Of a DNA stretch of 64,000 nucleotides, positions 11,362 through 47,371 are shown in pieces; the stretch's first letter is position 1, and each line of letters starts with the position of its first letter. Under the pieces are notes generated by a model. The model was given only the letters and a program-made list of their open reading frames with translations, was not told the DNA's origin and did no database searches. The position numbers and the translations under genes are program-made. The stretch lies in NCBI RefSeq assembly GCF_014202975.1, contig NZ_JACHHZ010000006.1, positions 186,001-250,000 of the forward strand. The letters are read 5' to 3'. The DNA comes from Povalibacter uvarum. Its GTDB lineage: Bacteria > Pseudomonadota > Gammaproteobacteria > Steroidobacterales > Steroidobacteraceae.

Positions 11362-11363
11362 AA

Positions 11364-11548: not shown

Positions 11549-11602
11549 CCCTGCGGCGGACGACGTCCAATCCGCTATCAAATCTTAAACAGGGTGCGCC
11601 TC

Positions 11603-27013: not shown

Positions 27014-27095
27014 GCGCGGATGATTCTTTACTTTCGGTTGTTGTCGCAACGGCGCTTCAGCCGCACCCCTGCTGCGACCGGCTGGAATCCAGCGA

Positions 27096-27109
27096 TGAAA
27101 GCGCTTACA
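27096..27109. promoter_or_regulatory. LacI-type operator, MFS/GH1 promoter
   Basis: TGAAAGCGCTTACA differs by one base from the perfect palindrome at 35551-35564. It begins four bases downstream of the -10 element of the minus-strand promoter, a position fit for repression. The likely regulator is the LacI-family protein encoded at 43597. Confidence 0.75.
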
Positions 27110-27624: not shown

Positions 27625-29118
27625 TCAGCGATTCTGCGCGGAGAGGAATTCCTCATGGGTCGGCAGGTGCGACACCATGCCCTGGATGGCTGCCTTCGCG
27701 GTTTTCAACGCCCCCGCGATTCGGGCGTAGTCGACGTTCTCGACTCGCGGGCAATAGTGGCTGGGCTGGATTCCCATACCTTCGAAGATCGATTGCCAGC
27801 TCGTGTTGCGAAACAGCGGGTCCGTCCCATCACGCAATGCGCCGTGGCGCTTGAACAGTTCGATGCGCTCCTGCAGCGAGTCCGGCAATTCGATCTGGCT
27901 GCACCATTGCCAGAACGGCGAGTCATCGCGCGCCGTTGCGGCGTAGTGCAGCAACACGAAGTCCCGCACTTCCTCGAAGTCTCCGGTCATTCGACGGTTG
28001 TACTCACGCACGAGAGCGAGATCGCAGTCGCGGTCCGGGAAATACCGCAGGAAGAAGTCGATGCCGCGAGCGATGAGATGAATCGACGTCGCTTCCAGCG
28101 GCTCGAGGAATCCTGCCGCCAGCCCCAGCGACAGGCAATTGTGTTTCCAGAGCTCACGCCGGTGACCCGTGACGAATGGAATGATCCGCGGCTCGTCGAC
28201 GACGGGACCATCGAGACCGCGGATCAGCGTCGCCTTCGCGGTCGAGTCGCTGCAGAACTGGCTCGAGTAGACGTAGCCATTGCCGACGCGTTGCTGCAGC
28301 GGGATTCGCCAGCTCCAGCCAGACGATTGCGCCGTCGCTCGCGTGTACGGCAACAGCGGCCCGCGTCCTTCGCTGCGCATCGCCACCGCGCGATCGCACG
28401 GAAGATAGTTCGACCAGTCGATGTGCTCGACCGCGAGCGCCTTGCCGATCAGCAACGCCTTGAAGCCGGTGCAGTCGATGAAGAAATCACCCCGGATCTC
28501 GCGGCCGTCCTCGAGCACGACCGATTCGATGAACCCGCTCTCGCGCTGCTTCACGCTGGTGACCTTCCCTTCCGTGCGCACCAGGCCACGGGACTGGGAG
28601 TAGTCACGCAGATAACGGGCAACGAGCGTGGCATCGACATGAAGCGCGTAGTTCGCGCCGCCGATCGGCGTGTTAGGCACCTTCGCGGGTGGGAAAAAGC
28701 GGCCGCTGTCCGCCATGACACTGCATGGCGAGAAATCCATGAGCGACGACGTATCGCCCTGCGCGCGCGCCCTGAGCCAGCACTGGTAGAAATCGTGCCC
28801 ACCGATCGGCTGACCGATCACACCGAAGGGATGGAAATACGACTTCGCCCGCTGGTGCCAGCCGACGAACTGGATCCCGAGCTTGTAGGTGGCGTCGGTC
28901 GCGCGAATGAATTCCTTCTCGTCGATCCCGAGCCGTTGAATCAGACCCACGAACGGCGGCACCGTGGACTCGCCGACGCCGATCGTGCCGATCTCCTCGG
29001 ATTCGATCAGCTCGATTTCACACAGCTCGCGCTTCAGGTGACGGCTCAGCATCGCGCCCGCGAGCCACCCGGAAGTACCACCGCCGATGATCACGATTCG
29101 GGAAAGAGGTTTCATCAC
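27625..29118 (-). CDS. Flavin-dependent halogenase (tryptophan halogenase family)
   Basis: 497 residues, PF04820-type. The FAD motif GGGTSG (12-17), catalytic Lys79 (same number as PrnA) in TYKLGIQFVGW, the WSWRIP motif (268-273), which is the WxWxIP signature that blocks monooxygenation, and the active-site Glu342 in FLEPLEATSIH are all present. It is therefore likely competent to make HOCl/HOBr at FAD and halogenate an electron-rich substrate via a Lys chloramine. No flavin reductase is nearby. GTG at 29118 and ATG at 29115 are alternative starts; both overlap the LysR stop (GTGATG), so the gene is translationally coupled to that regulator. The substrate is unknown. Confidence 0.85.
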   Translation of the reverse strand: MMKPLSRIVIIGGGTSGWLAGAMLSRHLKRELCEIELIESEEIGTIGVGESTVPPFVGLIQRLGIDEKEFIRATDATYKLGIQFVGWHQRAKSYFHPFGVIGQPIGGHDFYQCWLRARAQGDTSSLMDFSPCSVMADSGRFFPPAKVPNTPIGGANYALHVDATLVARYLRDYSQSRGLVRTEGKVTSVKQRESGFIESVVLEDGREIRGDFFIDCTGFKALLIGKALAVEHIDWSNYLPCDRAVAMRSEGRGPLLPYTRATAQSSGWSWRIPLQQRVGNGYVYSSQFCSDSTAKATLIRGLDGPVVDEPRIIPFVTGHRRELWKHNCLSLGLAAGFLEPLEATSIHLIARGIDFFLRYFPDRDCDLALVREYNRRMTGDFEEVRDFVLLHYAATARDDSPFWQWCSQIELPDSLQERIELFKRHGALRDGTDPLFRNTSWQSIFEGMGIQPSHYCPRVENVDYARIAGALKTAKAAIQGMVSHLPTHEEFLSAQNR

Positions 29119-30080: not shown

Positions 30081-30154
30081 GCTCGCGGATCCTCTGATGC
30101 TTTCGCTATGCTCGGCACAGCCCGATTCCCGATCTGCGTTACAGGACGACGTTC

Positions 30155-30982: not shown

Positions 30983-32332
30983 TCACCGCTCCACCTTGCG
31001 CGACGCGACAGCCGTCGCTTCCACTTCCGCGGGAATCGCAGGACTCCCCTCCTCCACGATCGGCACGCGATACGCCACCGGCAGCACAAAGCCCGCGATT
31101 CGCGTCGCCGCCTCGTCGCCGTTACCGGTTGTGATGTCCGCGCTCCATGTACCGTCGATACCCGGATAAATCGTCGGCGACGTGTAGGACGGCTTGGGGT
31201 ACCACAGACCCTCCGCCTGGATGTAGATCGCGACGCGATACAGCGCGGGATCCACACCCGTCACCTGCCCGCGCAGATCTTCTGTCGAACCCAGTACCGG
31301 CATCGAGGTGAATTGCAATTGCGCCGGCCCCGCCCCGCCGGGGATCTGTCGACTCCAGGTATCCGCGGCATTCGTTCCGTCGAACCCGGCGTTCATGCCG
31401 GTTTTCATGTTGCCCGACGAGTCGAGCACACCCCAGTGAGGACCTTGCGATCCCTCATCCGTCTTCCACGCTTCGTTGAAAGCTTCGAAGTAGAAGTACT
31501 CCACCTGCTTTGTCCGCGCCCACGAAACGAAGCTGTCGAAATAGTTTGCCGCGTTCGTTGCAGATGGAATCGCTCCGCCGCGCTGCGCGCCGGCAGTCGG
31601 CCAGCCGGTCTCGCTCACGACAACCTTCTTTGGATGAACCGCCGCCTGCAGTCGCGTGAAGATGAAATCGAAATGTCGCATCGACTGCTCGATGGGCACG
31701 CCATCGAAGTACGGGTAGATGTTCGCAAAGGCCACATCCACCTCATCGACGACGTCCGGATGCGCCAGCAACTGATACGCCGTGTCGGCATATCCGAGTT
31801 GAATGCGTGCGGGCAGCGTTTGCCTCACATCGCGGATCTGGGAGATGAGCGCATCCTCGGACAAGTCGGCGCGCTCGAGCACTTCCGAGCCGGCAATCAC
31901 GACATCGCCCGTATCGCCGGCCAGCGCCGCGGTGATCAGACCGTTCTTCTCGCGTTCATTCTGAGCAGCGTCACGGGAGAAAAACGCGCCGACGGTGATG
32001 CCGACACCGAGATTGCGCGCAACTCGCCCGGCGTTCTCGAGCCCATGAGTCATCGAATACGTACGCACGGAGTTCGTCATCGGCGCGACCACCTGCATGC
32101 GCGCGGTCAACTGGCTCTCGCTGATCACGATGCCCTGATTCGGGCTCTGGCCATCGAGATATGGCCCAAAGTTGAGCCCAGTTACTTTCTCGACGATGCG
32201 CGGCGGAGTCTGCGGAGGCGGCGACGAGCCTCCGGGCGGCGCAGCGTCACCGCCACCTCCGCCGCCACCCGAGCAAGCCGACAGCATGAGCGCCTGGATG
32301 CAGACACCAGCGATGAAGACGGACCGCATCAC
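30983..32332 (-). CDS. GH17 beta-1,3-glucanase-like lipoprotein
   Basis: 449 residues. A lipoprotein signal with LSAC lipobox (Cys20) and a Gly/Pro-rich linker (21-44) precede a GH17 TIM barrel. The family catalytic residues are visible: acid/base Glu150 in IAGSEVL and nucleophile Glu241 in VVSETGWPTAG, together with GLNFGPYLDGQ and NIYPYFDG. A C-terminal beta-rich region (about 330-449) follows. GH17 cleaves beta-1,3-glucans such as laminarin. The start (GTG 32332 or ATG 32329) overlaps the GH55-like stop, so the two are coupled. It is probably anchored in the outer or inner membrane facing the periplasm. Confidence 0.87.
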   Translation of the reverse strand: MMRSVFIAGVCIQALMLSACSGGGGGGGDAAPPGGSSPPPQTPPRIVEKVTGLNFGPYLDGQSPNQGIVISESQLTARMQVVAPMTNSVRTYSMTHGLENAGRVARNLGVGITVGAFFSRDAAQNEREKNGLITAALAGDTGDVVIAGSEVLERADLSEDALISQIRDVRQTLPARIQLGYADTAYQLLAHPDVVDEVDVAFANIYPYFDGVPIEQSMRHFDFIFTRLQAAVHPKKVVVSETGWPTAGAQRGGAIPSATNAANYFDSFVSWARTKQVEYFYFEAFNEAWKTDEGSQGPHWGVLDSSGNMKTGMNAGFDGTNAADTWSRQIPGGAGPAQLQFTSMPVLGSTEDLRGQVTGVDPALYRVAIYIQAEGLWYPKPSYTSPTIYPGIDGTWSADITTGNGDEAATRIAGFVLPVAYRVPIVEEGSPAIPAEVEATAVASRKVER

Positions 32333-35328
32333 TCACGCCCCTTGGCTGCATCGCCGATGTGCGATGCGACTCGCGCAGCGTAGAGCGAGGTGCCTGCGCA
32401 GATGAACAGCGTACGGCCGTCCTCCCCGCCAAACGTCAGGCCATGCGGGCGTTCGGGAACCTGGACGATCTCGATCAGCTTGCCGTTCGGGTCGTAGACG
32501 AAGATGTGGCCATCGGCGATGTAGACATTGCCATTGGCATCGACAGCGAGAGATTCACCGCCCTGCTCGGCGAACAACCGAGGCGCAATCCATTCACCGT
32601 CTGCGCCGACCTGGGCGGAGAACGTCTTGCCGTGCCACTCCTGCGTGAAATAAGCGCGCTCGCCGGTGCGCGCACGAGTCATTCCATACGCACGCAGCAC
32701 GTCGTGGTCCTTCGTTCCCCAACTCAGCAGGCCTTTGATGAAGTCCTCGCCTGCCGGCACAAACGTCGTCCCGTCCGGCGAAACGTAGTGTGCCGGACGC
32801 TTCGGCGATTCCCCTTTCGACACTTCGATGTCGAAGGTCCAGTAGTTCTGCGGCAGGATCACATCCAGCCCCGCGCGATCCTTGGCCACCTGGATCGGCA
32901 GCGCGTGGATCGGGCGATCCGGATGATCCGGCGCCAGCGCATACACAGAGCCGGCGTGAGAGATCACGAGCAGATTGCCCGCTCTGTCGATTGCGAGATT
33001 CACCGGCTCCAGTGACGCATCGGAGATCTCTTCGGGCAGTTTGCTCGGCAAGGTCCAGCGATAAATGCGCTGACGCTGTGCATCGACCGCATAGAAGCGC
33101 CCTTGCCGGTCAGCCGCGCCGCCAGCCAGACGCACGAAGCCGTCCGCCACTTTCTCTATGCGAGTTCCCTGCTCGAGCACGATCGATGCAGTGATCTGAT
33201 CCGGCACACGACGATCGTTCAACGTCGCTGCCGCAAACTCACGCGGCCTGATGTCGAGATCGTTTGCCGCATCGACGACCGCACTGCTGAAGTCCGCCTT
33301 GCTGTTGGTCCACCAGTGAAAGCCACGGAAGCGGATGTCGCTTGAGCCGCTGACCTTGACCGCGTGAGGGAATGACTGAGTGGAGCTGATCACCCGATAG
33401 ATGAAGAGATTCGCCAGCGTGATATTGCGGCTGCGGGAAATCTCGACCGGCAGTGCATGACCGCTTTCGCCACGCTCTTCCTCCAGTTGCAGCGCGTAGA
33501 GATCCCAGTTCGCGACCCGATCCAGCTTCACTTCCGTACGAACGTGATGCTCGCTCGACATCTGATAGACGCGCCCGGGCGTCGTTGTGTCTGTAACGAG
33601 CAGCCCCGCCTGCGCGTAAGGAGTCGGCGTCCATATATCGAGGAACGTTCCCCCACCTCCCTGTGTGACCCAGAGACTCGGATACTGTGAATCCCATCGC
33701 CGTCGCGGATCGGGATCCGCTGTCTTGTTGCTGTTGTAGATCGGCTCGGGCTCACCGCTCAGTTGCGCCGTTCCATGGCCGCCGAGGAACCGCACGTCAT
33801 TCATCAGCGATTTCTCGCCCGACATCCACTTCACACCCACCGCGCGCGGATTGACGCCATTCGTGTACACGCCGAGGCCGATCATGATGTTCGCGCCGCC
33901 TGACGGAGCCTCGATCATCGCCACCGGTTCGCCGACGCCCTGGAACGCCGGCGTGTCGTCAGCAAGGAAAATACGCACAGCGCCGGCATGCAGTCCGATC
34001 AGCGCCGTGTCCGGTTTCAGTTTCAGCGTTTCCGAAATCCGATAGGCGCCCATCGGGAAATAGAGTGCGCGATGCTTGTCGATCGCCGCACGAAGCGCAT
34101 TCGTGTCGTCCGCGATCCCGTCACCCTTCGCTCCCAGCGTTCGAACGTCGACCCAGCTGCTCTGCGGTGGCAGTGGAGCGATGTCGCTCGAGACGGCCAG
34201 CGGCAAGGCTGCGATGGATTCGATCCGCGATCGCGTCTCGAGCACCAACTGCTCTTTGGCGACACCCGAACCTTCAATGTGAAGGCCGTGAGAGAAGCTT
34301 GCGACCTTGTACGTACGACCTGGAGCGCGAATCTTCTTGCCGCTGGACCGGTAGGTCGCAAACGTCGGCGCATCGCGCGCGACGACATTCTCTATGTTGA
34401 TCTGATTACGGCTGTTGTATTCGTTGCCTATGACAAGCGCGGGCCCCGTAATGTTTTCGAGTCGCCCGTCCTTGATCCAGAGCTGTTCGCCTTTCTCGGC
34501 TCCCATCGAAACGGCGGTCGGCACATTCCGGAACAGCGGGCGGATCAGCGTCAACCCAGCGGCTTCAGATGCGATGGCCGCGGTGCGCTGCCCTTCGAAT
34601 TGCGTATCGATGACGGTGTATTGCCATCCCGGAGATGGCGTCTTCGTCATGATTGCGTAGCGCCCGCCGACGAAAGCGACGTCTTCCACCACATTGCCGC
34701 CATCGTGTACGCCCGCGAGGCCCGCGCCGATGTCGATCCGCATATGCGCCAGGAAACAGTGCTGTGCGAAAGTCGAGCGAACCGCGACGGCCGAGGGATT
34801 TCCCTTGCCCAGCACGATGTCGACGTTGCTGAGCGCGGAATAGAACGTGCCCGGATTCGCATCGCGTACCGGCTCGCTGAAGTCGATCGACTTCGCCTGT
34901 TGCGACGCAGACTGGAATACGAAACCCGCATTGCCCGGATGACCCGGAATGTTGCCGGTGAAATGAAACAGGTAAGCGGGCTCACGCTGGAATCCCGGCG
35001 AGCGATCCGCAAGCGCAAACACCGGGCGCTTCTTGCCGTAGCCGATCACCCGGATGCCGGGCCAGATGCGGATCGTGCGACTGAGCTTGTAGCGACCCTC
35101 GGGCACGAAGACGATGCCGCGAATGGTCGTTGCCACGACCGTGTCGATCGCCTTCTGCAGCGCAATCGAGTCGTCACCGACACCATCGCCATGAACACCG
35201 AACGCCTCTCGGGTGAGATAGATCGCCTTCGGATCGTCTGGCCGCTGCGTGTAATAAGAGTCCGCATGCGAACGATCGAGAGCCAGCAGGCCGCAGAGCG
35301 ACATAAGAACAGCGTGGAGTCTGGTCAT
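32329..35328 (-). CDS. GH55-like tandem beta-helix glucanase with C-terminal beta-propeller
   Basis: 999 residues, secreted (signal peptide about 1-22). Two parallel beta-helix modules of the pectate-lyase-3/GH55 type are visible, each opened by the same signature: REAFGVHGDGVGDDSIALQKAI (about 40-62) and VRTLGAKGDGIADDTNALRAAI (about 397-418). Such paired helices are the hallmark of GH55 exo-beta-1,3-glucanases. A third part (about 735-990) resembles NHL/SMP-30 beta-propellers, with repeats such as NLAIDRAGNLLVISHAGSVYAL and LAVDANGNVYIADGHIFVYD. It is coupled to the GH17 gene and divergent from the TonB receptor. The family call is moderate because catalytic residues are not confirmed. Confidence 0.72.
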   Translation of the reverse strand: MTRLHAVLMSLCGLLALDRSHADSYYTQRPDDPKAIYLTREAFGVHGDGVGDDSIALQKAIDTVVATTIRGIVFVPEGRYKLSRTIRIWPGIRVIGYGKKRPVFALADRSPGFQREPAYLFHFTGNIPGHPGNAGFVFQSASQQAKSIDFSEPVRDANPGTFYSALSNVDIVLGKGNPSAVAVRSTFAQHCFLAHMRIDIGAGLAGVHDGGNVVEDVAFVGGRYAIMTKTPSPGWQYTVIDTQFEGQRTAAIASEAAGLTLIRPLFRNVPTAVSMGAEKGEQLWIKDGRLENITGPALVIGNEYNSRNQINIENVVARDAPTFATYRSSGKKIRAPGRTYKVASFSHGLHIEGSGVAKEQLVLETRSRIESIAALPLAVSSDIAPLPPQSSWVDVRTLGAKGDGIADDTNALRAAIDKHRALYFPMGAYRISETLKLKPDTALIGLHAGAVRIFLADDTPAFQGVGEPVAMIEAPSGGANIMIGLGVYTNGVNPRAVGVKWMSGEKSLMNDVRFLGGHGTAQLSGEPEPIYNSNKTADPDPRRRWDSQYPSLWVTQGGGGTFLDIWTPTPYAQAGLLVTDTTTPGRVYQMSSEHHVRTEVKLDRVANWDLYALQLEEERGESGHALPVEISRSRNITLANLFIYRVISSTQSFPHAVKVSGSSDIRFRGFHWWTNSKADFSSAVVDAANDLDIRPREFAAATLNDRRVPDQITASIVLEQGTRIEKVADGFVRLAGGAADRQGRFYAVDAQRQRIYRWTLPSKLPEEISDASLEPVNLAIDRAGNLLVISHAGSVYALAPDHPDRPIHALPIQVAKDRAGLDVILPQNYWTFDIEVSKGESPKRPAHYVSPDGTTFVPAGEDFIKGLLSWGTKDHDVLRAYGMTRARTGERAYFTQEWHGKTFSAQVGADGEWIAPRLFAEQGGESLAVDANGNVYIADGHIFVYDPNGKLIEIVQVPERPHGLTFGGEDGRTLFICAGTSLYAARVASHIGDAAKGRE

Positions 35329-35550: not shown

Positions 35551-35564
35551 TGTAAGCGCTTACA
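35551..35564. promoter_or_regulatory. LacI-type operator, TonB-receptor promoter
   Basis: TGTAAGCGCTTACA is a perfect 14-base palindrome of the LacI-family class (central GC flanked by AAGC/GCTT), just downstream of a candidate -10 and 44 bases ahead of the GTG start. A one-mismatch copy precedes the MFS/GH1 operon. The likely binder is the LacI protein encoded at the end of the same gene run. Confidence 0.8.
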
Positions 35565-35607: not shown

Positions 35608-38600
35608 GTGAACGATCGCGCACGCAGACCTACACAGGTGGCGCAAGCCATCTCATTGATTCTCGGAACAACAGTCGTCTTCTCGACGGCCCTGTCACAG
35701 GAGACTCAGGGACTCGAAGAAGTCATTGTCACCGGCATCCGCGGCAGTCTCACTTCCTCCATGGAGTTGAAGCGCGACTCGCAGGGCGTGGTCGACGGCA
35801 TCGTCGCCGAAGACATCGGCAAGTTCCCGGACACCAACCTCGCCGAATCGCTGCAGCGTATTACCGGCGTGTCGATCGACCGCACGGCGATCGGCGAAGG
35901 TTCACGCGTCACGGTTCGCGGTGTCGGCCCCGACTTCAACCTGGTGCTGTTGAACGGCCGCCAGATGCCGGCATCGTCGATCGAAGCCACCACCGCATCG
36001 AACTCCCGCGCCTTCGACTTCGCCAACCTCGCTTCCGAAGCGATTTCGGCGATCGAGGTCTACAAGACCAGCCGCTCCTCCACTCCGACGGGCGGCATCG
36101 GCGCGACCATCAACGTGAAGACCGCCCGCCCGCTGGATGCGCCTGGATTGCACTCGAGCTTCGGCGTCAAAGGCGTGATCGACACATCCGCCGGCAACCT
36201 GCCGAGCAATCTCGAAGGCGACAGCATCACGCCTGAAATTTCAGGCATCTACAGCAACACTTTCGGCGACGACAAGTTCGGCATCGCGATCAGCGGCAGC
36301 TACCAGGAACGTGACCTCGGCTACAACCAGGCCACGACGGGTGGCTGGCGCGCATTCGGCGGCGACGAGGTGAACTGGGGCACGATCCCGCTGCCCGGTC
36401 AGCCCGGCTCCGAGCGCATCACGAACCGTCCCGACGCAAGCGACACCTACTCCGTGCCGCAGAGCCTGGGTTACAGCTTCAACTCCGTGCAGCGCAAGCG
36501 CACGAACGGCCAGCTGGCACTGCAGTGGGCACCGGTCGACAACGTCACCGCGACACTCGACTACACCTACTCCGAAAACAAGATCGCGACACAGCGCAAC
36601 GAACTGTCGGCGTGGTTCAATTTCGGCGCGTCGAGCAGCAGCTGGACCGATGGTCCTGTTGCAGCGCCTGACGTCTACACCGAGCTTCTCCCGGGCGGAA
36701 ACAGCGACGTCGGCATGGGCGGCGCGCAGTTCGCCACGAAGAACGAGAACAACTCCGTCGGCTTCAACCTCGAATGGGAAGTCAGCGACCGCTTCGGCCT
36801 GCAGCTCGACTTCCATGATTCGACCGCGGAATCCGGCCCGGACAGCCCGTACGGCTCGAACGTCGCCTTCGGCGTCTCGGACCTGAGCCGCGGCGATACG
36901 ACCGGCATCTTCTCGAACGACTTCCCGATCCTCGGCATGCAGCTGGCCAACGGCCGCACGCAGATCGACCCGAGCTTCATGGAAGTCACGGGCTCGAGCT
37001 TCCGCAACAGCTACATGAAGTCGGAAGTGCAGCAGGGCCAGTTGAGCGGCGACTTCGCGTTCACCGACAGCTCCCGCCTCGACTTCGGCGTCGGCTTCAC
37101 GGAAGTGAACAACCGTTCCGCGTTCTCTAACGTGCAGTCCGACAACACCTGGACCGGCATCCGCAACGCCAACGGCGGTCTGACGGCCGCGAGCTTCGAC
37201 GACGACATCTGGCGCGCGGACACCGTGTCCAAGTACTTCGACCAGATCTCCGGCAGCGGCGATCCACGCCTGTTCAACCAGTTCTTCACGTTCGACTTCG
37301 AAAGACTGCGCAATCAGGTCGCGCAGCTGCGCGGCGCGTTGCCCGATCAGTCGCTGGCCACGTGCCCGCTGAACGGCAATCAGTCGATCCGCGTGCCCTG
37401 CTACGAAGCTTCGAGCATCTACGGCACGGATCGTCGCGTCGAAGAGAAGTCGAAGAGCGCCTACGTCCAGTTCAGCCAGGACTGGGAATGGGGCAAGCCG
37501 ATGCATGCGGCTCTCGGACTGCGCTACGAGGAAACCGACGTTACGTCGAGCGCCCTCGTGCCGATTCCCACCGGCATCGCCTGGGCGGGCAACAACGAGT
37601 TCACGATCCAGTTCGGCGCACCCGACTTCACGACGCTCGAAGGCAGCTACGACTACCTGCTGCCGAGCTTCGACTTCAGCGTCGATCTGACCGATGACCT
37701 CAAGCTGCGCGCCAGCTACGGCGAGACGATCGGTCGCCCGCAATGGGGCGACATCCAGGGCGGACAGACCCTGGACGCTCTCGCTCGCATCAACGGCGGT
37801 ACTGGCAGACAGGGTGATCCGGGCCTGAAGCCGCTCGAGTCGCAGAACATCGACTTCTCGGTCGAGTACTACTACGGCGAATCGAACTACCTGTCGGTCG
37901 GCTACTTCCGCAAGAACATCGACAACTACATCGGTGTTTCGACGATCCAGGAAACGCCCTTCGATCTGCCGCACCCGGCGAACGGCGGGTACTTCAACGA
38001 AGCCAACACGAACGGTGCGTGTGCGGGTGACCTCACCTGTATCCGTCAGTACATCTTCGCCAATCATGACGGCGATCCGGGCGTGAACGCTGCCACGGGG
38101 ACGATCCTGGGCATCGCCGGCGATCCGATCGCGGTGTTCGACATCCAGGTGCCGAGCAACCAGAAGTCGGCGACGCTGGATGGCTGGGAAATGAACCTCC
38201 AGCACGTGTTCGGCCAGAGCGGCTTCGGCTTTGCCGTCAACTACACGATGGTGGATTCGAACATCAGCTACGACGACCAGAGCCGCCAGGATCAGTTTGC
38301 GATCGTCGGTCTGAGCGACTCCGCCAACTTCGTGGCCTTCTACGAGAACTACGGCTTCGGGATTCGCGCGGCCTACAACTGGCGCGATGAGTTCCTGTCG
38401 GCCACGTTCGACAGTACGGGCACACCGAACCCGAACTACACGGAGGCCTACGGCCAGATCGACGTCAGCGCGAGCTACGACATCACGGACGCGTTCACGG
38501 TCCAGGCGGAAGTCATCAACCTCACGGACGAGACTCAGCGAGTGCATGGCCGCAACGACAACCAGCTGCTTTTCGCAACCCAGACGGGTCCGCGCTACAT

Positions 38601-38631
38601 GATCGGCGCCCGTTACAAGTTCGGACAGTAG
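35608..38631 (+). CDS. TonB-dependent receptor, oligosaccharide type
   Basis: 1007 residues, outer-membrane active transporter. A signal peptide (about 1-30) is followed by a TonB-box-like LEEVIVTGIRGSL (36-48), the plug (about 50-170) with VAEDIGKFPDTNLAESLQRITGVSID, and a 22-strand barrel ending ARYKFG. The EEVIVTGIRxSL opening and the extra length are typical of the Xanthomonas/Caulobacter family of carbohydrate receptors. The start is GTG, preceded by a strong AGGGGGG ribosome-binding site. Expression is probably controlled by the LacI operator at 35551. Neighbouring GH17 and GH55-like enzymes suggest a beta-1,3-glucan oligomer as the substrate. Confidence 0.92.
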   Translation: MNDRARRPTQVAQAISLILGTTVVFSTALSQETQGLEEVIVTGIRGSLTSSMELKRDSQGVVDGIVAEDIGKFPDTNLAESLQRITGVSIDRTAIGEGSRVTVRGVGPDFNLVLLNGRQMPASSIEATTASNSRAFDFANLASEAISAIEVYKTSRSSTPTGGIGATINVKTARPLDAPGLHSSFGVKGVIDTSAGNLPSNLEGDSITPEISGIYSNTFGDDKFGIAISGSYQERDLGYNQATTGGWRAFGGDEVNWGTIPLPGQPGSERITNRPDASDTYSVPQSLGYSFNSVQRKRTNGQLALQWAPVDNVTATLDYTYSENKIATQRNELSAWFNFGASSSSWTDGPVAAPDVYTELLPGGNSDVGMGGAQFATKNENNSVGFNLEWEVSDRFGLQLDFHDSTAESGPDSPYGSNVAFGVSDLSRGDTTGIFSNDFPILGMQLANGRTQIDPSFMEVTGSSFRNSYMKSEVQQGQLSGDFAFTDSSRLDFGVGFTEVNNRSAFSNVQSDNTWTGIRNANGGLTAASFDDDIWRADTVSKYFDQISGSGDPRLFNQFFTFDFERLRNQVAQLRGALPDQSLATCPLNGNQSIRVPCYEASSIYGTDRRVEEKSKSAYVQFSQDWEWGKPMHAALGLRYEETDVTSSALVPIPTGIAWAGNNEFTIQFGAPDFTTLEGSYDYLLPSFDFSVDLTDDLKLRASYGETIGRPQWGDIQGGQTLDALARINGGTGRQGDPGLKPLESQNIDFSVEYYYGESNYLSVGYFRKNIDNYIGVSTIQETPFDLPHPANGGYFNEANTNGACAGDLTCIRQYIFANHDGDPGVNAATGTILGIAGDPIAVFDIQVPSNQKSATLDGWEMNLQHVFGQSGFGFAVNYTMVDSNISYDDQSRQDQFAIVGLSDSANFVAFYENYGFGIRAAYNWRDEFLSATFDSTGTPNPNYTEAYGQIDVSASYDITDAFTVQAEVINLTDETQRVHGRNDNQLLFATQTGPRYMIGARYKFGQ

Positions 38632-38674: not shown

Positions 38675-38680
38675 CCGGAG

Positions 38681-38713
38681 AAGCCGCTGTCCCCCACAGC
38701 GGCTTTTTCGTTT
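38681..38713 (+). terminator. Rho-independent terminator after the TonB receptor
   Basis: A 10-base stem AAGCCGCTGT/ACAGCGGCTT with a CCCCC loop is followed by TTTCGTTT. It separates the receptor from the halogenase cassette, which must then depend on read-through or on its own promoter; a TATAGT at about 38744 is a weak -10 candidate. Confidence 0.85.
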
Positions 38714-38777: not shown

Positions 38778-40331
38778 TTGACGAATCCGATTCGACATGT
38801 GGTGATCGTGGGTGGCGGCTCGGCCGGCTGGTTGACGGCCGGGGTCGTCGCGGCGGATCACTGCGCAAAGTCGGAATCCGGGTTGCGGGTTACGCTGATC
38901 GAATCCCCCGACGTCGGCCCGATCGGCGTCGGCGAAGGCACCTGGCCCACGATGCGCGACACGCTGCGGCGAATCGGCGTCACCGAGAGCGACTTCATCC
39001 GCGAATGCGATGCGTCGTTCAAGCAGGGGTCCCGGTTCAATCAGTGGGCTACCGGCGCCGAGGGCGATTACTACTATCACCCGTTCGTTCTGCCCCAGGG
39101 CTATACGGACACGAGCCTCGTTGCGAGCTGGCTGCAACGCCACAGCGACGTTCCCTTCGCCGATCTCGTGAGCTTCCAGCCGCATCTATGCGTTCACGGC
39201 AAAGCGCCGAAGCAGATGTCGACGCCGGAGTACGCCGCGGTCGCGAACTACGCGTATCACCTCGATGCCGGCAAGTTCGGCATGTTCCTGCGCAAGCACT
39301 GCACGGAAAAGCTGGGGGTAAAGCTCGTGCTGGATCACGTCGTAGCGATTCAGACGCGCGACAACGGCGATATCGCCGCCGTCCAGACCCGTGAGCAGGG
39401 CCCTATCGAAGGCGATCTATTCATCGACTGCACGGGCCTGCAATCACTGCTGATCGGCAAGCACTACGAGATTCCGTTCCTCTCGCAGAAGCACGTGCTC
39501 TTCAACGACACGGCCCTTGTGGTGCAGGTACCCTACCCTCACGAAGATAGCCCCATCGCCTCCCAGACGATTTCAACCGCGCAGACGAGCGGCTGGATCT
39601 GGGACATCGGCCTGCCGACACGCCGCGGCATCGGCCACGTCTATTCGAGCGCTCACACGACCGATGAAGCCGCGGAGCGCGAACTGCGCAGCTACGTCGA
39701 GCGCACCGGCGGTCCCGCGAATGCGCCGAGTCCGCGAAAGCTCTCGTTCCATCCGGGCTACCGCACGAAGTTCTGGCATCGCAACTGCGTCGCCATCGGA
39801 CTCTCCGGCGGATTCATCGAGCCGCTGGAAGCGTCGGCACTGGCGATCGTCGAGTTTTCGGCGGCGATGCTCAGCGACCAGCTGCCCGCCACACGCAGCG
39901 CGATGGACACCGTGGCCCGGCGCTTCAATGATGCCTTCCTCTATCGCTGGGAGCGCGTCATCGATTTCCTGAAGCTCCATTACATCCTGACGCGCCGCAC
40001 CGATTCCGCGTACTGGCGGGACAACTGCCGCACCGACTCGATTCCGGACCGGCTGCAGGATCTCACCGAATTTTGGCGCTACCAGCCGCCGTCCCGGTAC
40101 GATCTGCCTCGTATCGAGGAGATCTTTCCGTCCGCCAGCTATCAGTACGTGCTCTATGGCATGGGCTTCCGTCCGCAGTCGCCGCCCGCGATGCGGCGCA
40201 GCGACGATCCGGAACGTGCCGACGAGTTCTTCCGCGAAGCCGCGGCGCTCACCGGCAAGATGCTGAAAGCGCTGCCGACCAATCGCGAACTGATCAGCCA
40301 TATCAAACGCAACGGGCTGCCTCGCATCTAG
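38778..40331 (+). CDS. Tryptophan halogenase-family flavoprotein, divergent motif
   Basis: 517 residues, PF04820-type. The FAD motif GGGSAG (12-17), Lys82 in SFKQGSRFNQW (equivalent to PrnA Lys79) and Glu351 in FIEPLEASAL are present, but the WxWxIP signature reads WIWDIG (273-278), with Gly in place of Pro. It also has a longer insert around 92-150 than the other two copies. The start appears to be TTG at 38778, directly before the beta-strand entering the FAD motif, with no strong ribosome-binding site. It is the first gene of a five-gene run. Whether it halogenates or has a different flavin activity is open. Confidence 0.82.
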   Translation: MTNPIRHVVIVGGGSAGWLTAGVVAADHCAKSESGLRVTLIESPDVGPIGVGEGTWPTMRDTLRRIGVTESDFIRECDASFKQGSRFNQWATGAEGDYYYHPFVLPQGYTDTSLVASWLQRHSDVPFADLVSFQPHLCVHGKAPKQMSTPEYAAVANYAYHLDAGKFGMFLRKHCTEKLGVKLVLDHVVAIQTRDNGDIAAVQTREQGPIEGDLFIDCTGLQSLLIGKHYEIPFLSQKHVLFNDTALVVQVPYPHEDSPIASQTISTAQTSGWIWDIGLPTRRGIGHVYSSAHTTDEAAERELRSYVERTGGPANAPSPRKLSFHPGYRTKFWHRNCVAIGLSGGFIEPLEASALAIVEFSAAMLSDQLPATRSAMDTVARRFNDAFLYRWERVIDFLKLHYILTRRTDSAYWRDNCRTDSIPDRLQDLTEFWRYQPPSRYDLPRIEEIFPSASYQYVLYGMGFRPQSPPAMRRSDDPERADEFFREAAALTGKMLKALPTNRELISHIKRNGLPRI

Positions 40332-40346
40332 CAGCCGGAGACCCGC

Positions 40347-41060
40347 ATGCCGAAGAACGTGTTACTGAACAACATCGAGCACAAGGACCTGCACATCGTC
40401 ACTGCGCGCGGCGCGCAGTACGGCGACGATGTCATGTTCGCTCTGACCTTCCCTGCCGAGTTCCGCAGCATTCAGGCGCACTACCCGATCGTGTTCAGCA
40501 AGGGACCGGACGGCAAGTTTCAGCCGCTGGCGCTGTTTGGATTCAAGCAGAACCAGAATCTCTTTCTATCGAACGACAGCTGGGACGCGACCTACGTCCC
40601 TCTGATGGTCGAGCGCCAGCCGTTCCTGATCGGCTCGGGCCCGAATGGTGAGCTGCTCGTGCACGTCGACCTCGATCATCCACGCGTCAGCCGCACGCAG
40701 GGCGAAGCCGTCTTCCGCGAACACGGCGGCACCACCGACTATCTCGAACGCATCAATTCCACGCTCATGACGCTCCACCAGGGAATCGCGGCTACGGCGC
40801 CTTTCGTCGATGCGCTGATCGAGCACAACCTGCTGGAGTCGTTCGTGTTCGACATCCAGCTCGCCGACGGTTCGCAGAATCGTCTCTCGGGCTTCTACAC
40901 TGTTCACGAAGACCGGCTGCGCAACCTCGACGGCGCGGCGCTGGAGCGACTCCACAAGACCGGCTACCTGCAGGCGATCTTCATGGTGATCGCTTCGCTG
41001 TCGAACTTCCGCGCGCTGATCGAGCGGCAGCAGAAGCTGCTGAAGACAGGTCATGCCTGA
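40347..41060 (+). CDS. SapC-family protein
   Basis: 237 residues, PF07277 SapC-type. Visible blocks are the opening LNNIEHKDLHIVTARGAQYGDDVMF, the middle FKQNQNLFLSNDSWDATYVPLMVERQPFLIG, and the late FDIQLADGSQNRLSGFYTVHEDRL. There is no signal peptide or membrane segment, so it is probably cytosolic. The name comes from the S-layer-associated region of Campylobacter, but the biochemical role is unknown. It is preceded by a GGAGA ribosome-binding site 15 bases after the halogenase stop, and overlaps the next gene by eight bases. This family repeatedly occurs beside TonB receptors and halogenases, a recurring link that is still unexplained. Confidence 0.85.
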   Translation: MPKNVLLNNIEHKDLHIVTARGAQYGDDVMFALTFPAEFRSIQAHYPIVFSKGPDGKFQPLALFGFKQNQNLFLSNDSWDATYVPLMVERQPFLIGSGPNGELLVHVDLDHPRVSRTQGEAVFREHGGTTDYLERINSTLMTLHQGIAATAPFVDALIEHNLLESFVFDIQLADGSQNRLSGFYTVHEDRLRNLDGAALERLHKTGYLQAIFMVIASLSNFRALIERQQKLLKTGHA

Positions 41061-42057
41061 GCGGATGAAGGAAATCGCGGGACTCGATCCGCGCTCGCTG
41101 CCGGACGATGTGCTGAGCTCGACTCAGCCGTTGGTGCTGCGCGGACTGATCTCGAGCTGGCCAATGGTGCAGGCGGCTCTCGAATCGAGCGCCGCGGCGC
41201 GAGCCTACGTCCTCAAGTTCTATCGTGATGCCACCGTGGGCGCGTTCCTCGGCATGCCGGACATCAATGGCCGGTTCTTCTACAACGACGACCTCAGCAA
41301 CTTCAATTTCCGCGCGGTGAAGATCAAGCTCGACACCGTCGTCAATGAAATCGCGAGACACGAAGCCGCCGCGAACCCGCCTGCGATCTACGTCGGCTCG
41401 ACTACCGTCGATACGTGCCTGCCGGGCTTCCGCGCCGAGAACGATCTCGATCTCGGCGATCGTCGCGCACTGGCCAGCGTGTGGATCGGCAACCAGACGC
41501 GCATCGCGGCGCATCATGACCTGCCCGACAACATCGCCTGCGTCGCCGCCGGGCATCGGCGCTTTACTGTCTTTCCGCCCGAGCAGATCGACAATCTCTA
41601 TGTCGGCCCGGTCGACTTCACGCCCGCGGGCCAGGCCGTCAGTCTCGTCGACTTCCACGAGCCCGACCTGGACCGGTTCCCACGCTTCGCGACCGCGCTG
41701 GAACATGCGCAGATCGCCGAGCTCGGCCCGGGTGATGCGATCTTCATTCCCAGCTTGTGGTGGCATCACGTCGAATCGCTGGATACGTTCAACGTGCTGG
41801 TGAATTACTGGTGGCGGCAATCGCCTGCATGGATGGACACACCGATGCACGCACTGACGCTCGCGATGATGACGGTGCGCGACCTGCCGCCCGCGCAGCG
41901 CGATGCGCTGAAGAAGATGTTCGATCACTACGTTTTCGACGTGAACGACGCCACCGCTGCGCACATTCCCGAGGGCGCGCGACGCTCGCTGGCGCCGATG
42001 ACGGAAGACATGATGCGGGAGCTTCGCGTGCGCCTGCTGCAGAGACTGAATCGTTGA
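41053..42057 (+). CDS. Cupin_8 (JmjC-like) putative 2-oxoglutarate oxygenase
   Basis: 334 residues, Cupin_8/JmjC-like double-stranded beta-helix. The Fe(II) ligands are visible: the H-x-D pair His154/Asp156 in IAAHHDLPDN and the distal His238 in PSLWWHHV. A 2-oxoglutarate-binding Arg/Lys region (GHRRFTVFPPEQIDNLY) lies between. The family includes FIH-like protein and small-molecule hydroxylases. The start overlaps SapC by eight bases. Its position between two halogenases suggests that it hydroxylates a shared substrate, possibly a protein or peptide; this is inference. Confidence 0.83.
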   Translation: MPERMKEIAGLDPRSLPDDVLSSTQPLVLRGLISSWPMVQAALESSAAARAYVLKFYRDATVGAFLGMPDINGRFFYNDDLSNFNFRAVKIKLDTVVNEIARHEAAANPPAIYVGSTTVDTCLPGFRAENDLDLGDRRALASVWIGNQTRIAAHHDLPDNIACVAAGHRRFTVFPPEQIDNLYVGPVDFTPAGQAVSLVDFHEPDLDRFPRFATALEHAQIAELGPGDAIFIPSLWWHHVESLDTFNVLVNYWWRQSPAWMDTPMHALTLAMMTVRDLPPAQRDALKKMFDHYVFDVNDATAAHIPEGARRSLAPMTEDMMRELRVRLLQRLNR

Positions 42058-42067
42058 GGGGATTGCA

Positions 42068-43576
42068 GTGAATCAGAAGCGTATTCGCAGAATCGTCATC
42101 GCCGGCGGCGGCACCGCGGGCTGGATGGTCGCAGCGTGCATTTCGAAGATCATGGGAAAGATCCTCGACATCAAGCTCATCGAATCGGATGAGATCGGCA
42201 CCGTCGGTGTCGGCGAAGCGACGATTCCCACGCTCGTTGCCTTCCATCGCCTGCTCGACATCAACGAGCAGGAGTTCATGGCAGCCACGCAGGCGACGTT
42301 CAAGCTCGGCATCGGCTTCGACAACTGGCGCGACCGCGGCCTGAACTACATCCATTCGTTCGGCATCACGGGCACCGATCACTGGACGGCTGGCTTTCAG
42401 CATTTCTGGCTCAAGGGCCGCGAACGCAATCTCGCCAGCGACTACGGCGACTACTGTCTTGAGCTCGTGGCCAGCCTCGCCAATCGCTTCGCGCACTTGC
42501 CGCGCGACGGGATGAACTACGCGTTCCATCTCGACGCCGGTCTCTACGCCAAATTCCTGCGACGCTTCAGCGAGGGCTACGGCGTCAAGCGCATCGAAGG
42601 GAAGATCGTCGAGGTGAAGACGAACGCAGAGAGCGGCTATATCGAATCGCTCCGGCTCGACTCCGGCAACGACATCGAAGGCGATCTGTTCATCGATTGC
42701 ACCGGCTTCCGCGGCCTGCTGATCGGACAAGCGCTCAAGATCGGCTACGACGACTGGTCGCACTGGCTGTTCAACGACAGCGCCCTCGCCTTGCAGACGG
42801 AGTCTGTCGGCGAGCCTGTGCCATACACGCGATCGATCGCGCATGAGTCCGGTTGGCAGTGGCGCATTCCGCTGCAGAGTCGCGTCGGCAACGGCATCGT
42901 CTACAGCAGCCGCTACATCGACGATGAACAGGCAAAACAGACGCTGCTGGGCAACATCCAAGGCAAGATCCTGACGGAACCGCGCGTCATCCGCTTCAAG
43001 CCCTGCCAGCGGCAACAGGTCTGGAGCAAGAACTGTATCGCCATGGGTCTCGCGAGCGGATTCCTCGAGCCGATCGAATCGACGAGCATTCATCTGATCT
43101 CGCGCGCCGTGAGCCGCCTGATGCAGAGCTTCCCGAGCGAAGGCATCCAGCAGTCGGACATCGACGAGTACAACGAGCGCAGCAACTGGGAAATCCAGCA
43201 CATCCGCGACTTCATCATCCTGCACTACCATGTCACCCAGCGGCAGGACAGCCCGTACTGGCGCGCGTGCCGCGAGATGAAGATCCCCGCGAGCCTGCAG
43301 CATCGCATCGACCTGTTCCGGGAAACGGGCCGCGTCTTCCGGGTGCCGAACGAGCTGTTCGCCGAGAATTCCTGGGTCCAGGTCATGCTGGGCCAGGGAT
43401 TGATGCCGGAACAGCATCACCAGGTCGCCGATCTCATGGGCGACGCCGAACTGGCGAACTTCCTCGGCACGATCAAGGCCAGGATCGCCAAGACGGTGGC
43501 GCAGCTCCCTTCTCATCAGGCTTACGTCGAGCAATACTGCAAGGCGCCGGACATGAACGCCGCCATGGCGAAATAA
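42068..43576 (+). CDS. Flavin-dependent halogenase (tryptophan halogenase family)
   Basis: 502 residues, PF04820-type. All signatures are present: GGGTAG (13-18), Lys79 in TFKLGIGFDNW (same number as PrnA), WQWRIP near 267-272 and Glu in FLEPIESTSIHLI. It is more similar to the copy at 27625-29118 than to the one at 38778. The GTG start at 42068 has a good ribosome-binding site (GAGGGGA, 5-base spacer) and lies 10 bases after the Cupin_8 stop. Followed 20 bases later by the LacI regulator. No flavin reductase is seen nearby, so reduced FAD would have to come from elsewhere. Confidence 0.87.
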   Translation: MNQKRIRRIVIAGGGTAGWMVAACISKIMGKILDIKLIESDEIGTVGVGEATIPTLVAFHRLLDINEQEFMAATQATFKLGIGFDNWRDRGLNYIHSFGITGTDHWTAGFQHFWLKGRERNLASDYGDYCLELVASLANRFAHLPRDGMNYAFHLDAGLYAKFLRRFSEGYGVKRIEGKIVEVKTNAESGYIESLRLDSGNDIEGDLFIDCTGFRGLLIGQALKIGYDDWSHWLFNDSALALQTESVGEPVPYTRSIAHESGWQWRIPLQSRVGNGIVYSSRYIDDEQAKQTLLGNIQGKILTEPRVIRFKPCQRQQVWSKNCIAMGLASGFLEPIESTSIHLISRAVSRLMQSFPSEGIQQSDIDEYNERSNWEIQHIRDFIILHYHVTQRQDSPYWRACREMKIPASLQHRIDLFRETGRVFRVPNELFAENSWVQVMLGQGLMPEQHHQVADLMGDAELANFLGTIKARIAKTVAQLPSHQAYVEQYCKAPDMNAAMAK

Positions 43577-43596
43577 CAAAGAAGCGAGCGGGACGG

Positions 43597-44598
43597 ATGG
43601 CCAATATCTACGAAGTCGCGGAGCTCGCCGGCGTGTCGCTGGCGACGGTCTCGCGCGTCATCAATCCAGGCGCGAAGGTCAGCGACAAGACGCGGCAGAA
43701 GGTGCTGGCCGCGATGAAGCAGCTCGGCTATCGGCCGAATTCGATCGCTCAATCGCTCGCGACCCGCAGCTCCAACACAGTGGGCGTACTCGTCTCCGAA
43801 CTGCACGGTCCGTTCTTCGGCGCGATGCTGAGCGCGATCGAGGAAACACTGCGCGCCAACGGCAAGTTCGTGCTGGTGGCGGCGAGTCACAGCAAGGAAG
43901 AGCTGGAAGCCGAGGCGATCAAGTTCCTCGTGGGCCGCAACTGCGATGCGCTCATTGCCCACATCGAAGCGCTGCCCGATAAATTCATCGTCGAGCACAA
44001 CAAGAAATCCGCGCCGCTCGTCGTGCTCAACCGGAAGGTCCGCGGCCTCGCCGATCGCTGCTTCAGCCTGAACAACGAGCTGGGCGGTTACCTGGCCGCT
44101 CAGTCGCTGCTCCAGCTCGGCCATCGCAACATCGCGTACATCTCGGGCCCGCTCGACTTCGTCGATGCGCAGCAGCGTCTGCTTGGGCACAAACGCGCAT
44201 TGACGGAAGCCGGCGTGACTTTCGATGACCGGCTGCTGCATGAAGGCGACTATCACGAGACGGGCGGCAGCGACGCTCTGAACGACCTGTTCAATCAAGG
44301 CGTGAAGTTCAGCGCAGTGATCTGCGCGAACGACGACATGGCGGCAGGTGCCATGGCTGCCGCGCACGATCGTGGATTGAGACTGCCGGAGGAACTATCC
44401 ATCGTCGGCTTCGACGATTCGCCGATCGCGCGCTACGTCTACCCGAAGCTCTCGACGGTCCACTACCCGATTGCGGACATGAGTCACATGGCGGCGCGAT
44501 GGGTCCTGCGCAATGTCTACCAGCAGAGCAGTCTGGAAGTGCAACAGGCCTTCGAGCCTCGTTACATCGCCCGCGACTCCGTGAGTCGCCCGGCCTGA
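43597..44598 (+). CDS. LacI-family transcriptional repressor
   Basis: 333 residues. The LacI helix-turn-helix (1-25, ANIYEVAELAGVSLATVSRVINPGAKVS) and hinge (about 45-60, YRPNSIAQSLATRSSNTVGVL) are followed by a periplasmic-binding-like sugar sensor. It ends the receptor-halogenase gene run on the plus strand. Its recognition helix (SLATVSR) fits class palindromes with central GC such as those at 35551 and 27096. An oligosaccharide, probably a laminari-oligomer, is expected as inducer by inference. The ATG at 43597 is chosen because it begins directly at the HTH; the upstream in-frame codons lie inside the halogenase gene. Confidence 0.9.
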   Translation: MANIYEVAELAGVSLATVSRVINPGAKVSDKTRQKVLAAMKQLGYRPNSIAQSLATRSSNTVGVLVSELHGPFFGAMLSAIEETLRANGKFVLVAASHSKEELEAEAIKFLVGRNCDALIAHIEALPDKFIVEHNKKSAPLVVLNRKVRGLADRCFSLNNELGGYLAAQSLLQLGHRNIAYISGPLDFVDAQQRLLGHKRALTEAGVTFDDRLLHEGDYHETGGSDALNDLFNQGVKFSAVICANDDMAAGAMAAAHDRGLRLPEELSIVGFDDSPIARYVYPKLSTVHYPIADMSHMAARWVLRNVYQQSSLEVQQAFEPRYIARDSVSRPA

Positions 44599-47154: not shown

Positions 47155-47371
47155 GGCGGATCTCCTTCTCCAGGCGGGATTGCCTGTCGGAGATCCCTCG
47201 TCACAGCGCTGCGCAGTCGTCAGGGCCGCGCGTAGCGCGCTTGCGAGCACGGCGTAGCCGCGCGCAGGCCTTGACGACGAGAACGGTGTGACAACCTATA
47301 CGTCGACCAGGCGATCCCTCTCTCTCCGCTGCCCCTAGTACGCATACCACCTGTCGGGTCGGTAAACCAAT

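Follow-up and report, generated by a model that had tools for sequence, protein, structure and literature searches.

BrvH and Xcc4156 are close described relatives of HalB, one of the halogenases at the locus studied here. According to the available excerpts of two papers, small indoles are brominated in vitro by BrvH and by the Xcc enzymes, while what BrvH-type halogenases act on in nature is given as unknown (PMC5945002, PMC7336383), as the initial annotation of our locus had said. The first excerpt also describes the catalytic role of the halogenase Lys, a low activity of BrvH on indole, a failure to accept free Trp, an active site that may admit larger substrates and a lack of the residues that bind the Trp carboxylate and amino groups in free-tryptophan halogenases; the BrvH gene, too, is adjoined by a second halogenase gene (PMC5945002). 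A term search found TonB unmentioned in both papers (PMC5945002, PMC7336383). QhpG, a related flavoprotein monooxygenase, is described as hydroxylating Trp within a protein (excerpt of PMC7876137). The CUT loci of Xanthomonas and Caulobacter are carbohydrate utilisation loci in which a TonB receptor goes with an inner-membrane sugar transporter, degradative enzymes and a sugar-type regulator, and a term search of the main text returned no use of halogenase, SapC or oxygenase (PMC1790865).

The window that we analysed (a stretch of 64,000 nucleotides from Povalibacter uvarum, Table 1) contains the same combination of TonB receptor, sugar transporter, degradative enzymes and sugar regulator, but differs from the CUT loci in a four-gene halogenase/SapC/oxygenase block fixed behind the receptor. 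Profile matches and coordinates agree with the gene set and order first proposed, namely receptor (TIGR01782), HalA, SapC, Cupin_8, HalB and LacI regulator. The tight packing described earlier is likewise present: the SapC and Cupin_8 genes share 8 bases (41053-41060), gaps of 15 and 10 bases separate HalA from SapC and Cupin_8 from HalB, and the LacI gene starts 17 bases after HalB. The gap between receptor and HalA measures 146 bases. A third halogenase gene lies within the same glycan locus; two weak parts of one ORF (C2:1153462-1154556; 42 and 46 bits) were left out of the halogenase count. Since the GH1 domain begins at residue 118, the true start of that gene is probably internal, and we take the pectate-lyase-fold protein to be GH55-like.

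Table 1. Features of the receptor operon and the adjoining glycan locus (positions in the window)
Feature	Position	Strand	Remarks
GH1 glycosidase	24045..25727	-	domain from residue 118
Sugar (MFS) transporter, same presumed regulon	25406..27049	-	
Second operator-like site	27096..27109	none	1 mismatch; 46 bases before sugar-transporter ORF
Third PF04820 halogenase	27625..29118	-	4-base overlap with LysR gene
GH17 glycosidase	30983..32332	-	
Pectate-lyase-fold protein	32329..35328	-	divergent from receptor
Operator, LacI-type, TGTAAGCGCTTACA	35551..35564	none	perfect 14-base palindrome
TonB-dependent receptor, TIGR01782 (TonB-Xanth-Caul)	35608..38631	+	GTG start; 648.6 bits against a cut-off of 310
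Terminator/attenuator-like hairpin between receptor and cassette	38676..38710	+	-24.4 kcal/mol, z -6.9
HalA, divergent flavin halogenase-like protein	38778..40331	+	PF04820, 4e-118
SapC	40347..41060	+	PF07277, 2e-72; 243.8 bits against a cut-off of 28.9
Cupin_8, FIH/JmjC-like Fe(II)/2-oxoglutarate oxygenase	41053..42057	+	PF13621, 7e-71
HalB, flavin halogenase of BrvH/Xcc4156 type	42068..43576	+	GTG start; PF04820, 1e-192
LacI-family regulator	43594..44598	+	last gene of presumed operon

HalB has the hallmark sequence features of a flavin-dependent halogenase: the GxGxxG motif (GGGTAG), the catalytic Lys (K79), WxWxIP (WQWRIP, residues 263-268) and the catalytic Glu (E337), as aligned over 78 rows. 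It is closest to Xcc4156 (6y1w, 1.1e-230), 9luq and BrvH (6frl, 1.2e-140), and its alignment to 5lv9, a Trp halogenase by name, stops at residue 418. BrvH and Xcc4156 are close homologues that have K79, WxWxIP and E337 in common with HalB. HalA retains GGGSAG (G12-G17), K82 and E351 (63 rows), but its conserved motif is W273-x-W275-D-I-G-L, read as WIWDIGLP in the window; as the spacing to the Pro differs from that in WxWxIP, we class HalA as halogenase-like only. The best PDB matches of HalA are 2pyx (8.9e-180), presumably from Shewanella, 9ltb (5.8e-147) and 9lu2 (6.5e-130), none of which has a functional paper in the literature searched; 9ltb and 9lu2 aside, 2pyx is listed as an unpublished, halogenase-like structural-genomics entry (excerpt of PMC7336383). 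QhpG resembles both proteins as a halogenase-like flavoprotein, in its case one acting on Trp inside a protein (excerpt of PMC7876137), but HalA and HalB score 38 and 19.6 against a cut-off of 240 for NCBIfam NF049967 and fall outside the QhpG family.

Cupin_8 belongs to PF13621 and conserves H154-x-D156 and H239, corresponding to the HxD...H iron triad of Cupin_8/FIH-like 2OG oxygenases. Its nearest solved structures are FIH (4e-21) and JMJD5, which have the same triad and act on proteins; their substrates are eukaryotic. Judged by family, the enzymes are consistent with halogenation and hydroxylation, as originally suggested. For SapC we obtained a confident AF2 model (pLDDT 96.6) whose predicted fold has no match at E <= 0.001 in the PDB or a viral library (best E 0.43 and 0.047, TM-scores below 0.2 on the query), and the SapC sequence has no PDB match up to E 1. 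This confident model with no PDB fold match is new here.

We compared the neighbourhoods of 80 named SapC relatives and found the order receptor-HalA-SapC-Cupin_8-HalB kept in 57 of them and a receptor at 77. Two of the three receptor-less loci (L074, L075) lie at contig ends, and in the third (L133) the contig stops within the receptor gene, one end of which is present. A single clade of 183 receptors takes in every one of the 140 SapC-linked receptors examined, and none of 32 receptors outside it is linked; the linkage was also present in each of eight fetched regions from outside the class of the window. The control genome, that of Caulobacter vibrioides, has matches to PF04820, PF07277, PF13621 and TIGR01782. 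Support for the clade is 0.68 in the tree with these 183 leaves and SH-aLRT 100 in a thinned tree of 101 rows. Receptor and SapC distances correlate over the 140 pairs (r 0.87), with no value as high in 500 permutations. Among 11 same-genome pairs from nine genomes, the partner of the nearest SapC was one of the five nearest receptors in 18 of 22 comparisons. The association of cassette and receptor is therefore not chance, and the co-occurrence that the earlier reading had called for is both conserved and specific. Because the block recurs in many bacteria beside one receptor lineage, the search for the substrate of its halogenases can start with the receptor and the sugars taken up through it.

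For tree and column work we excluded the split receptors L072 and L090 and short receptors, the latter at <=850 aa for the named loci (72 of 77 used) and at cuts of 780 to 900 aa for the other sets. The clade also holds 43 receptors (of 183) with no adjacent SapC, for some of which a cassette is present at a distance or in trans. This applies to 12 of 41 clade receptors in the phylum set, 10 of them with no cassette gene in the fetched region. In the order set it applies to 28 of 51, and the flanks fetched for 26 of them contain no cassette. Lineage D accounts for nine of the 26; in it SapC was found farther along the same contig or on another in seven of eight genomes.

These cassette-free receptors, together with the altered WxWxIP of HalA, would fit enzymes that have no specific substrate now and persist by operon inertia or as flavin/iron stress proteins. 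We consider this highly improbable: in alignments of 78 HalB and 79 Cupin_8 sequences the hallmark residues are kept in 95 % or more, the gene order is kept as described above, and close relatives are active enzymes (excerpts of PMC5945002 and PMC7336383).

The enzyme set itself varies. Among the 80 named loci HalA is absent in 14, any halogenase in three and Cupin_8 in two; in seven fetched stretches (L193, L194, L273, L294 and L364-L366) the receptor stands with a HalA-type protein and SapC alone, and other sets combine a receptor with three halogenases, or with two halogenases, Cupin_8 and a DUF6445 protein. An exported partner that stays constant while the enzymes vary fits several independent marks on one object better than one biosynthetic pathway. 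Flavin halogenases are usually found in natural-product pathways and receptors commonly import such products, so the cassette might instead make a small halogenated or hydroxylated product (a signal, a peptide or a metal-binding compound) to be taken up again through the receptor, in the way of a siderophore. Such a product seems improbable to us given the modular enzyme sets and the typed part of the recurring neighbour clusters, in which we recognised no scaffold-building genes. The packed block also has little room for a precursor gene, as only the 146-base gap would suffice for a peptide precursor and much of it is hairpin.

The operator TGTAAGCGCTTACA upstream of the receptor is the sole exact copy in the 6.3-Mb genome. 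We label this palindrome LacI-type, presuming that it corresponds to the known operators of the LacI family. An operator-type palindrome lies 5' of the receptor in 66 of 72 named loci, against 2.8 expected. A hairpin followed by T residues occurs between receptor and cassette in 31 of 75 named loci, compared with 0/59 after HalA, 0/75 after SapC, 0/73 after Cupin_8 and 8/72 after HalB, of which the first three are weak controls, falling mostly within the following coding sequence, and the last is the fairer one. As far as the literature searched goes, both the palindrome before the receptor and the terminator-like hairpin between receptor and cassette are new here. The strong hairpin in the 146-base gap suggests that expression of the cassette may depend on read-through and be lower than that of the receptor. 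Taken together, the fixed order, the co-inheritance with one receptor lineage and the operator focus the search on the receptor, on its ligand or on an exported protein made along with it.

The operator-type site is shared with the sugar transporter of the GH1 locus. Hydrolases of the beta-glucan type dominate the cassette neighbourhoods (GH3 in 28/80 and 15/38 loci, GH1 in 22/80), and a neighbourhood this uniform would likewise be compatible with a glycan-linked substrate. Both observations, and the bromination of small indoles by BrvH and the Xcc enzymes (PMC5945002, PMC7336383), are in line with the main alternative, that the enzymes modify small aromatics imported through the receptor, such as phenolic or indolic aglycones of plant glycosides, or detoxify them once the glycosidases have set them free. 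We hold it to be rather unlikely, as some cassettes sit beside GH2 or pullulanase genes instead, neither the FIH-like Cupin_8 nor SapC has an obvious part to play, SapC genes outside the cassette are often found by giant, partly secreted-type proteins, and the activity of BrvH on indole is low (PMC5945002).

Our preferred reading, which we put forward tentatively, is that the cassette encodes inducible cytoplasmic enzymes whose target, prior to export, is the receptor chain or some other exported protein. A LacI-repressed promoter would yield the TonB receptor in quantity, while the terminator-like hairpin 3' of it would let only part of the transcription enter the cassette. HalA, SapC, Cupin_8 and HalB, in which we saw no signal peptide by eye, would remain in the cytoplasm and act in catalytic amounts on the new receptor chain or a co-made exported protein, before or during export. 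There HalB, and perhaps HalA, may halogenate or hydroxylate aromatic side chains, Cupin_8 may act like FIH and hydroxylate a side chain, and SapC may bind or present the exported chain. We infer an exported protein as the substrate from the single, co-inherited clade of SapC-linked receptors, the giant neighbours of SapC elsewhere (some with RTX repeats or a TPS secretion domain), the relation of Cupin_8 to FIH and JMJD5, the action of QhpG on protein Trp, the hairpin between receptor and enzymes, and the rejection of free Trp by BrvH together with an active site that may admit larger substrates (excerpt of PMC5945002).

The initial annotation had named the receptor itself as one possible substrate of a modification system tied to receptor function. 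The tie to the receptor stands, through co-inheritance, the LacI-type site and the sibling site before the sugar transporter; the receptor as substrate is not supported so far, with clade receptors lacking an adjacent SapC common and no residue tracking cassette presence in column scans of the receptor alignments. No column 90 % conserved in linked receptors is altered in more than four of nine unlinked lineages, and HalA-present and HalA-absent receptors show no residue difference above 0.76. Trp336 was a candidate, being the only one of 88 near-invariant columns altered in both of the first cassette-free lineages (L198/L200 and L207). In a first extension, W was present in 110 of 111 linked receptors (F in L278), and 15 of 29 receptors with no cassette in the fetched flanks kept it (10 F, 2 Y, 2 gaps). 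Nine of these 15 belong to the eight genomes of lineage D, where SapC and halogenases are inverted on the same contig in G271 and G386 and on other contigs in G336, G356, G327 and G372, a halogenase fragment shares the contig in G364 with SapC on another, and G418 has no SapC match. L270 also keeps W336 and has its cassette elsewhere in the genome, while lineage F keeps it without SapC in 5/5 genomes, four of them with no strong halogenase match. For a held-out test we picked 40 regions with 41 receptors before inspecting the residue, taking 41 of 51 receptors, skipping 10 (mostly same-genus repeats, one partial) and excluding G000 and G010; all 41 fall inside the clade. W336 was found in 28 of 29 linked receptors (Y in the other), in one halogenase-only and one Cupin_8-only case, and in 10 of 10 cassette-free receptors, and we reject it as the marked residue.

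SapC genes that stand without the cassette are often beside giant ORFs, a further new observation. An ORF of 1300 or more aa lies within 2.5 kb of 10 of 18 such genes, two more (L047, L053) adjoin a slightly shorter ORF, and six have no giant neighbour in view. Twelve giant-ORF stretches were scanned, with RTX repeats in one, a TPS secretion domain in two and no strong Pfam domain in eight; these eight, and the six genes lacking a giant neighbour, count against an exported protein as substrate. As these neighbours are partly secreted-type proteins and not receptors, the enzymes could instead modify a surface glycan, a lipid or an exported protein other than the receptor, and the receptor gene would then share no more than the regulon. 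We judge this no less improbable than a recovered small product, since SapC tracks its own receptor in the same-genome comparisons, which a regulon alone would not need, and we recognised no surface-glycan genes in the typed part of the recurring neighbours. SapC represents an unsolved fold linked to large surface-type proteins. SapC of the Campylobacter fetus S-layer locus, from which PF07277 reportedly has its name, is said to be tied to an exported surface protein, whereas SapC in the window adjoins a TonB receptor and redox enzymes. It is conceivable, though in our view doubtful, that inducible post-translational halogenation and hydroxylation of outer-membrane receptors is widespread and that SapC is a general partner, as adaptor or enzyme, for exported surface proteins, including giant adhesin-like proteins elsewhere. 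If outer-membrane proteins are halogenated, this would, to our knowledge, add a type of protein modification not described before in bacteria. In all 10 cases the giant ORF nearest to the solo SapC gene is on the same strand.

Among the best 80 of 488 SapC relatives, a sample biased to close kin that came from a search of genome_contigs with an alignment of SapC sequences, 57 loci carry receptor, HalA, SapC, Cupin_8 and HalB in this order, and the co-occurrence that the initial annotation proposed to look for is conserved. The departures among the 80 lack HalA (14), both halogenases (3) or Cupin_8 (2), or have a doubled set (1). Only three of the 80 are without a receptor match, one locus having a cut receptor end (L133) and two lying at contig ends (L074, L075). 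The titles name Steroidobacter, Lysobacter, Pseudoxanthomonas, Luteimonas, Massilia, Duganella, Rubrivivax and others. Receptor-led searches at two levels gave independent sets: SapC adjoins 23/51 receptors fetched from the order (296 genomes) and 29/41 from the phylum (398 genomes), the latter including every one of the 8 regions fetched from genomes of another class. The receptor-cassette unit is real and conserved, well beyond chance. Three receptor matches (contigs G552:C8, G641:C1 and G754:C22) each contain a single stop codon within the part that matched.

In the window itself, ORF listing and Pfam bear out the four-gene cassette of HalA, SapC, Cupin_8 and HalB, and its placement between a TonB receptor (TIGR01782) upstream and a LacI gene downstream is confirmed. 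This locus of the 6.3 Mb host genome also encodes GH1 and GH17 enzymes, a protein with a pectate-lyase fold, a sugar transporter of the MFS type and a third halogenase. An uncultured Steroidobacter supplies the closest named relative of the window SapC (88% identity).

A tree of 215 receptors puts all 140 SapC-linked ones into a single clade with 183 members (support 0.68; SH-aLRT 100 in a thinned 101-row tree), and 0/32 receptors outside the clade are linked. In an earlier tree of 123 receptors, 88 of the clade's 91 members were linked (support 0.66). The distance matrices of receptor and SapC correlate (r 0.87 for 140 pairs, reached by 0/500 permutations), which partly reflects species history. 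Species history cancels in same-genome pairs: for 11 such pairs from 9 genomes, the nearest SapC partner was among the five nearest receptors in 18/22 comparisons. Within the clade of 183, 43 receptors have no adjacent SapC. Lineage D (L241, L256, L257, L259-L263 and L267) groups clade receptors without adjacent SapC in the fetched flanks; in two genomes where a single contig carries receptor and cassette gene alike (G271:C15, G386:C99), the nearest cassette gene is about 5 to 6.5 kb off in opposite orientation, not directly downstream.

None of the searchable papers, which exclude subscription papers, describes the receptor-cassette block as a unit. Within this scope, full-text search returned no paper in which halogenase appears together with SapC, or with both SapC and TonB, and the papers matching halogenase and TonB terms look unrelated. 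By term search, TonB, SapC and cupin are all absent from the BrvH paper (PMC5945002) and from a bacterial halogenase survey (PMC8269204), TonB is absent from the Xcc4156 paper (PMC7336383), and halogenase is mentioned neither in the Shewanella sugar encyclopaedia (PMC2996990) nor in the CUT-locus paper's main text (PMC1790865).

Upstream of the receptor, 43 bases separate its start codon from the end of a perfect palindrome, TGTAAGCGCTTACA, which has no second exact copy in the host genome; a one-mismatch copy lies upstream of the sugar transporter. Across the named loci, those around the best 80 SapC relatives, a palindromic TGNNANCGNTNNCA site is found upstream of the receptor in 66/72, where the background of these loci themselves predicts 2.8. 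The receptor-HalA gap contains a predicted 15-pair hairpin (-24.4 kcal/mol versus -9.3 in shuffles). A hairpin with a T tail occupies this gap in 31/75 named loci and follows HalB in 8/72 stretches; after HalA (0/59), SapC (0/75) and Cupin_8 (0/73), where the stretches are mostly coding, there is none. This placement of hairpin and palindrome, coming from sequence scans rather than proof of function, suggests that much receptor and little enzyme would be made.

HalB, whose nearest relatives are Xcc4156, 9luq and BrvH, shows the halogenase hallmarks in at least 95% of 78 rows. In HalA, closest to 2pyx, the flavin motif and the Lys and Glu residues are preserved but the WxWxIP motif is altered. 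Cupin_8 retains its iron ligands and is closest to FIH. The predicted SapC structure (pLDDT 96.6, 57-row alignment) has zero matches among solved and viral folds at E 0.001; H12, E38, W79, P85, P92, F93 and S217 are invariant in 20 diverse SapC proteins. The publications on BrvH (PMC5945002) and Xcc4156 (PMC7336383) leave open the native substrates of these enzymes. According to PMC7876137, the halogenase-like flavoprotein QhpG can act on Trp within a protein; HalA and HalB both fall outside QhpG by family profile comparison.

Across the compared loci the receptor is constant and the enzymes are modular; this modularity speaks for modification of the receptor, or of an exported protein made with it, more than for a pathway to a single small molecule. 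The initial annotation had proposed a system that modifies something tied to receptor function: the co-occurrence is upheld, while the receptor as substrate gained no positive residue-level support. Trp336 of the receptor looked promising and was then found kept by 10/10 cassette-free receptors of a held-out set; in a column scan no other receptor column did better than 4/9 lineages. Beta-glucan-type hydrolases predominate around the cassette, with a GH16/deacetylase family at 31, GH3 at 28 and GH1 at 22 of the 80 loci, GH3 near 15/38 more diverse loci, and GH94, GH2 or pullulanase at a few; a glycan-tied substrate would also be compatible with this theme. Our best reading, held tentatively and with less than even confidence, is that the enzymes modify the receptor chain or another exported protein before export. 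It is weakened because receptors without adjacent SapC are numerous and the hydrolase theme is uniform, and its main rival is the modification of imported aromatics.

A second, cassette-independent link may join SapC to large exported proteins; the sequence evidence is modest, the giant ORFs having been called mechanically. SapC is present in 19/140 genomes of the class. Besides those of the host genome there are 23 SapC loci, 5 in receptor cassettes (L050, L052, L054, L059, L061) and 18 elsewhere. An ORF of at least 1300 aa lies within 2.5 kb at 10/18 non-cassette loci versus 1/80 cassette loci, the closest being on the SapC strand in all 10; two further loci adjoin slightly shorter giant ORFs and six have none in view. 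Domain scans of 12 giant-ORF stretches gave RTX repeats (L041), TPS secretion domains (L049, L060) and repeat domains (L042), with nothing strong in 8/12.

PF04820 has 12 matches in the host genome, ten of which we counted after excluding two weak ones (pieces of one ORF). Nine of the ten lie downstream of a TIGR01782 receptor and on its strand; the remaining one, the third halogenase, is 6.5 kb off the window receptor in the same glycan locus. Both SapC copies follow such receptors, and all three Cupin_8 copies are within their operons, which are headed by 5 of the 18 over-cut-off TIGR01782 receptors. The paralogous enzyme sets differ, as tabulated below. DUF6445 (PF20043) adjoins such receptors in 18 loci (e.g. 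L016, L052, L105, L331, L335), is found in 0/14 control genomes, and is possibly another enzyme of modification.

Related operons of the host genome and minor features of the window
Feature	Position	Strand	Content
L014, host genome			receptor-SapC-Cupin_8-HalB plus receptor-Hal
L015, host genome	C4:505376-509831		receptor, then three tandem halogenase genes (receptor-Hal-Hal-Hal)
L016, host genome			DUF6445-receptor-Hal-Hal-Cupin_8
One-mismatch palindrome copy, window	27096-27109		
Third halogenase, window	27625-29118	minus	neither SapC nor Cupin_8 adjoining
Third halogenase and LysR-type regulator gene, window	27625-30080	minus	4-base overlap
ORF, window	30077-30892	minus	no Pfam match; 4-base overlap with LysR gene
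ORF, window	30155-30976	opposite to 30077-30892	
Aminotransferase group, window	7785-12973		class-III aminotransferase, two glutamine-synthetase-fold genes
ORF, window	46594-47250	minus	HNHPSG motif

Beyond the LysR gene, the opposite-strand ORF may be the real gene rather than the one without a Pfam match. The aminotransferase group we take to be possibly a polyamine-type pathway, and the ORF with the HNHPSG motif is presumably RadC-like.
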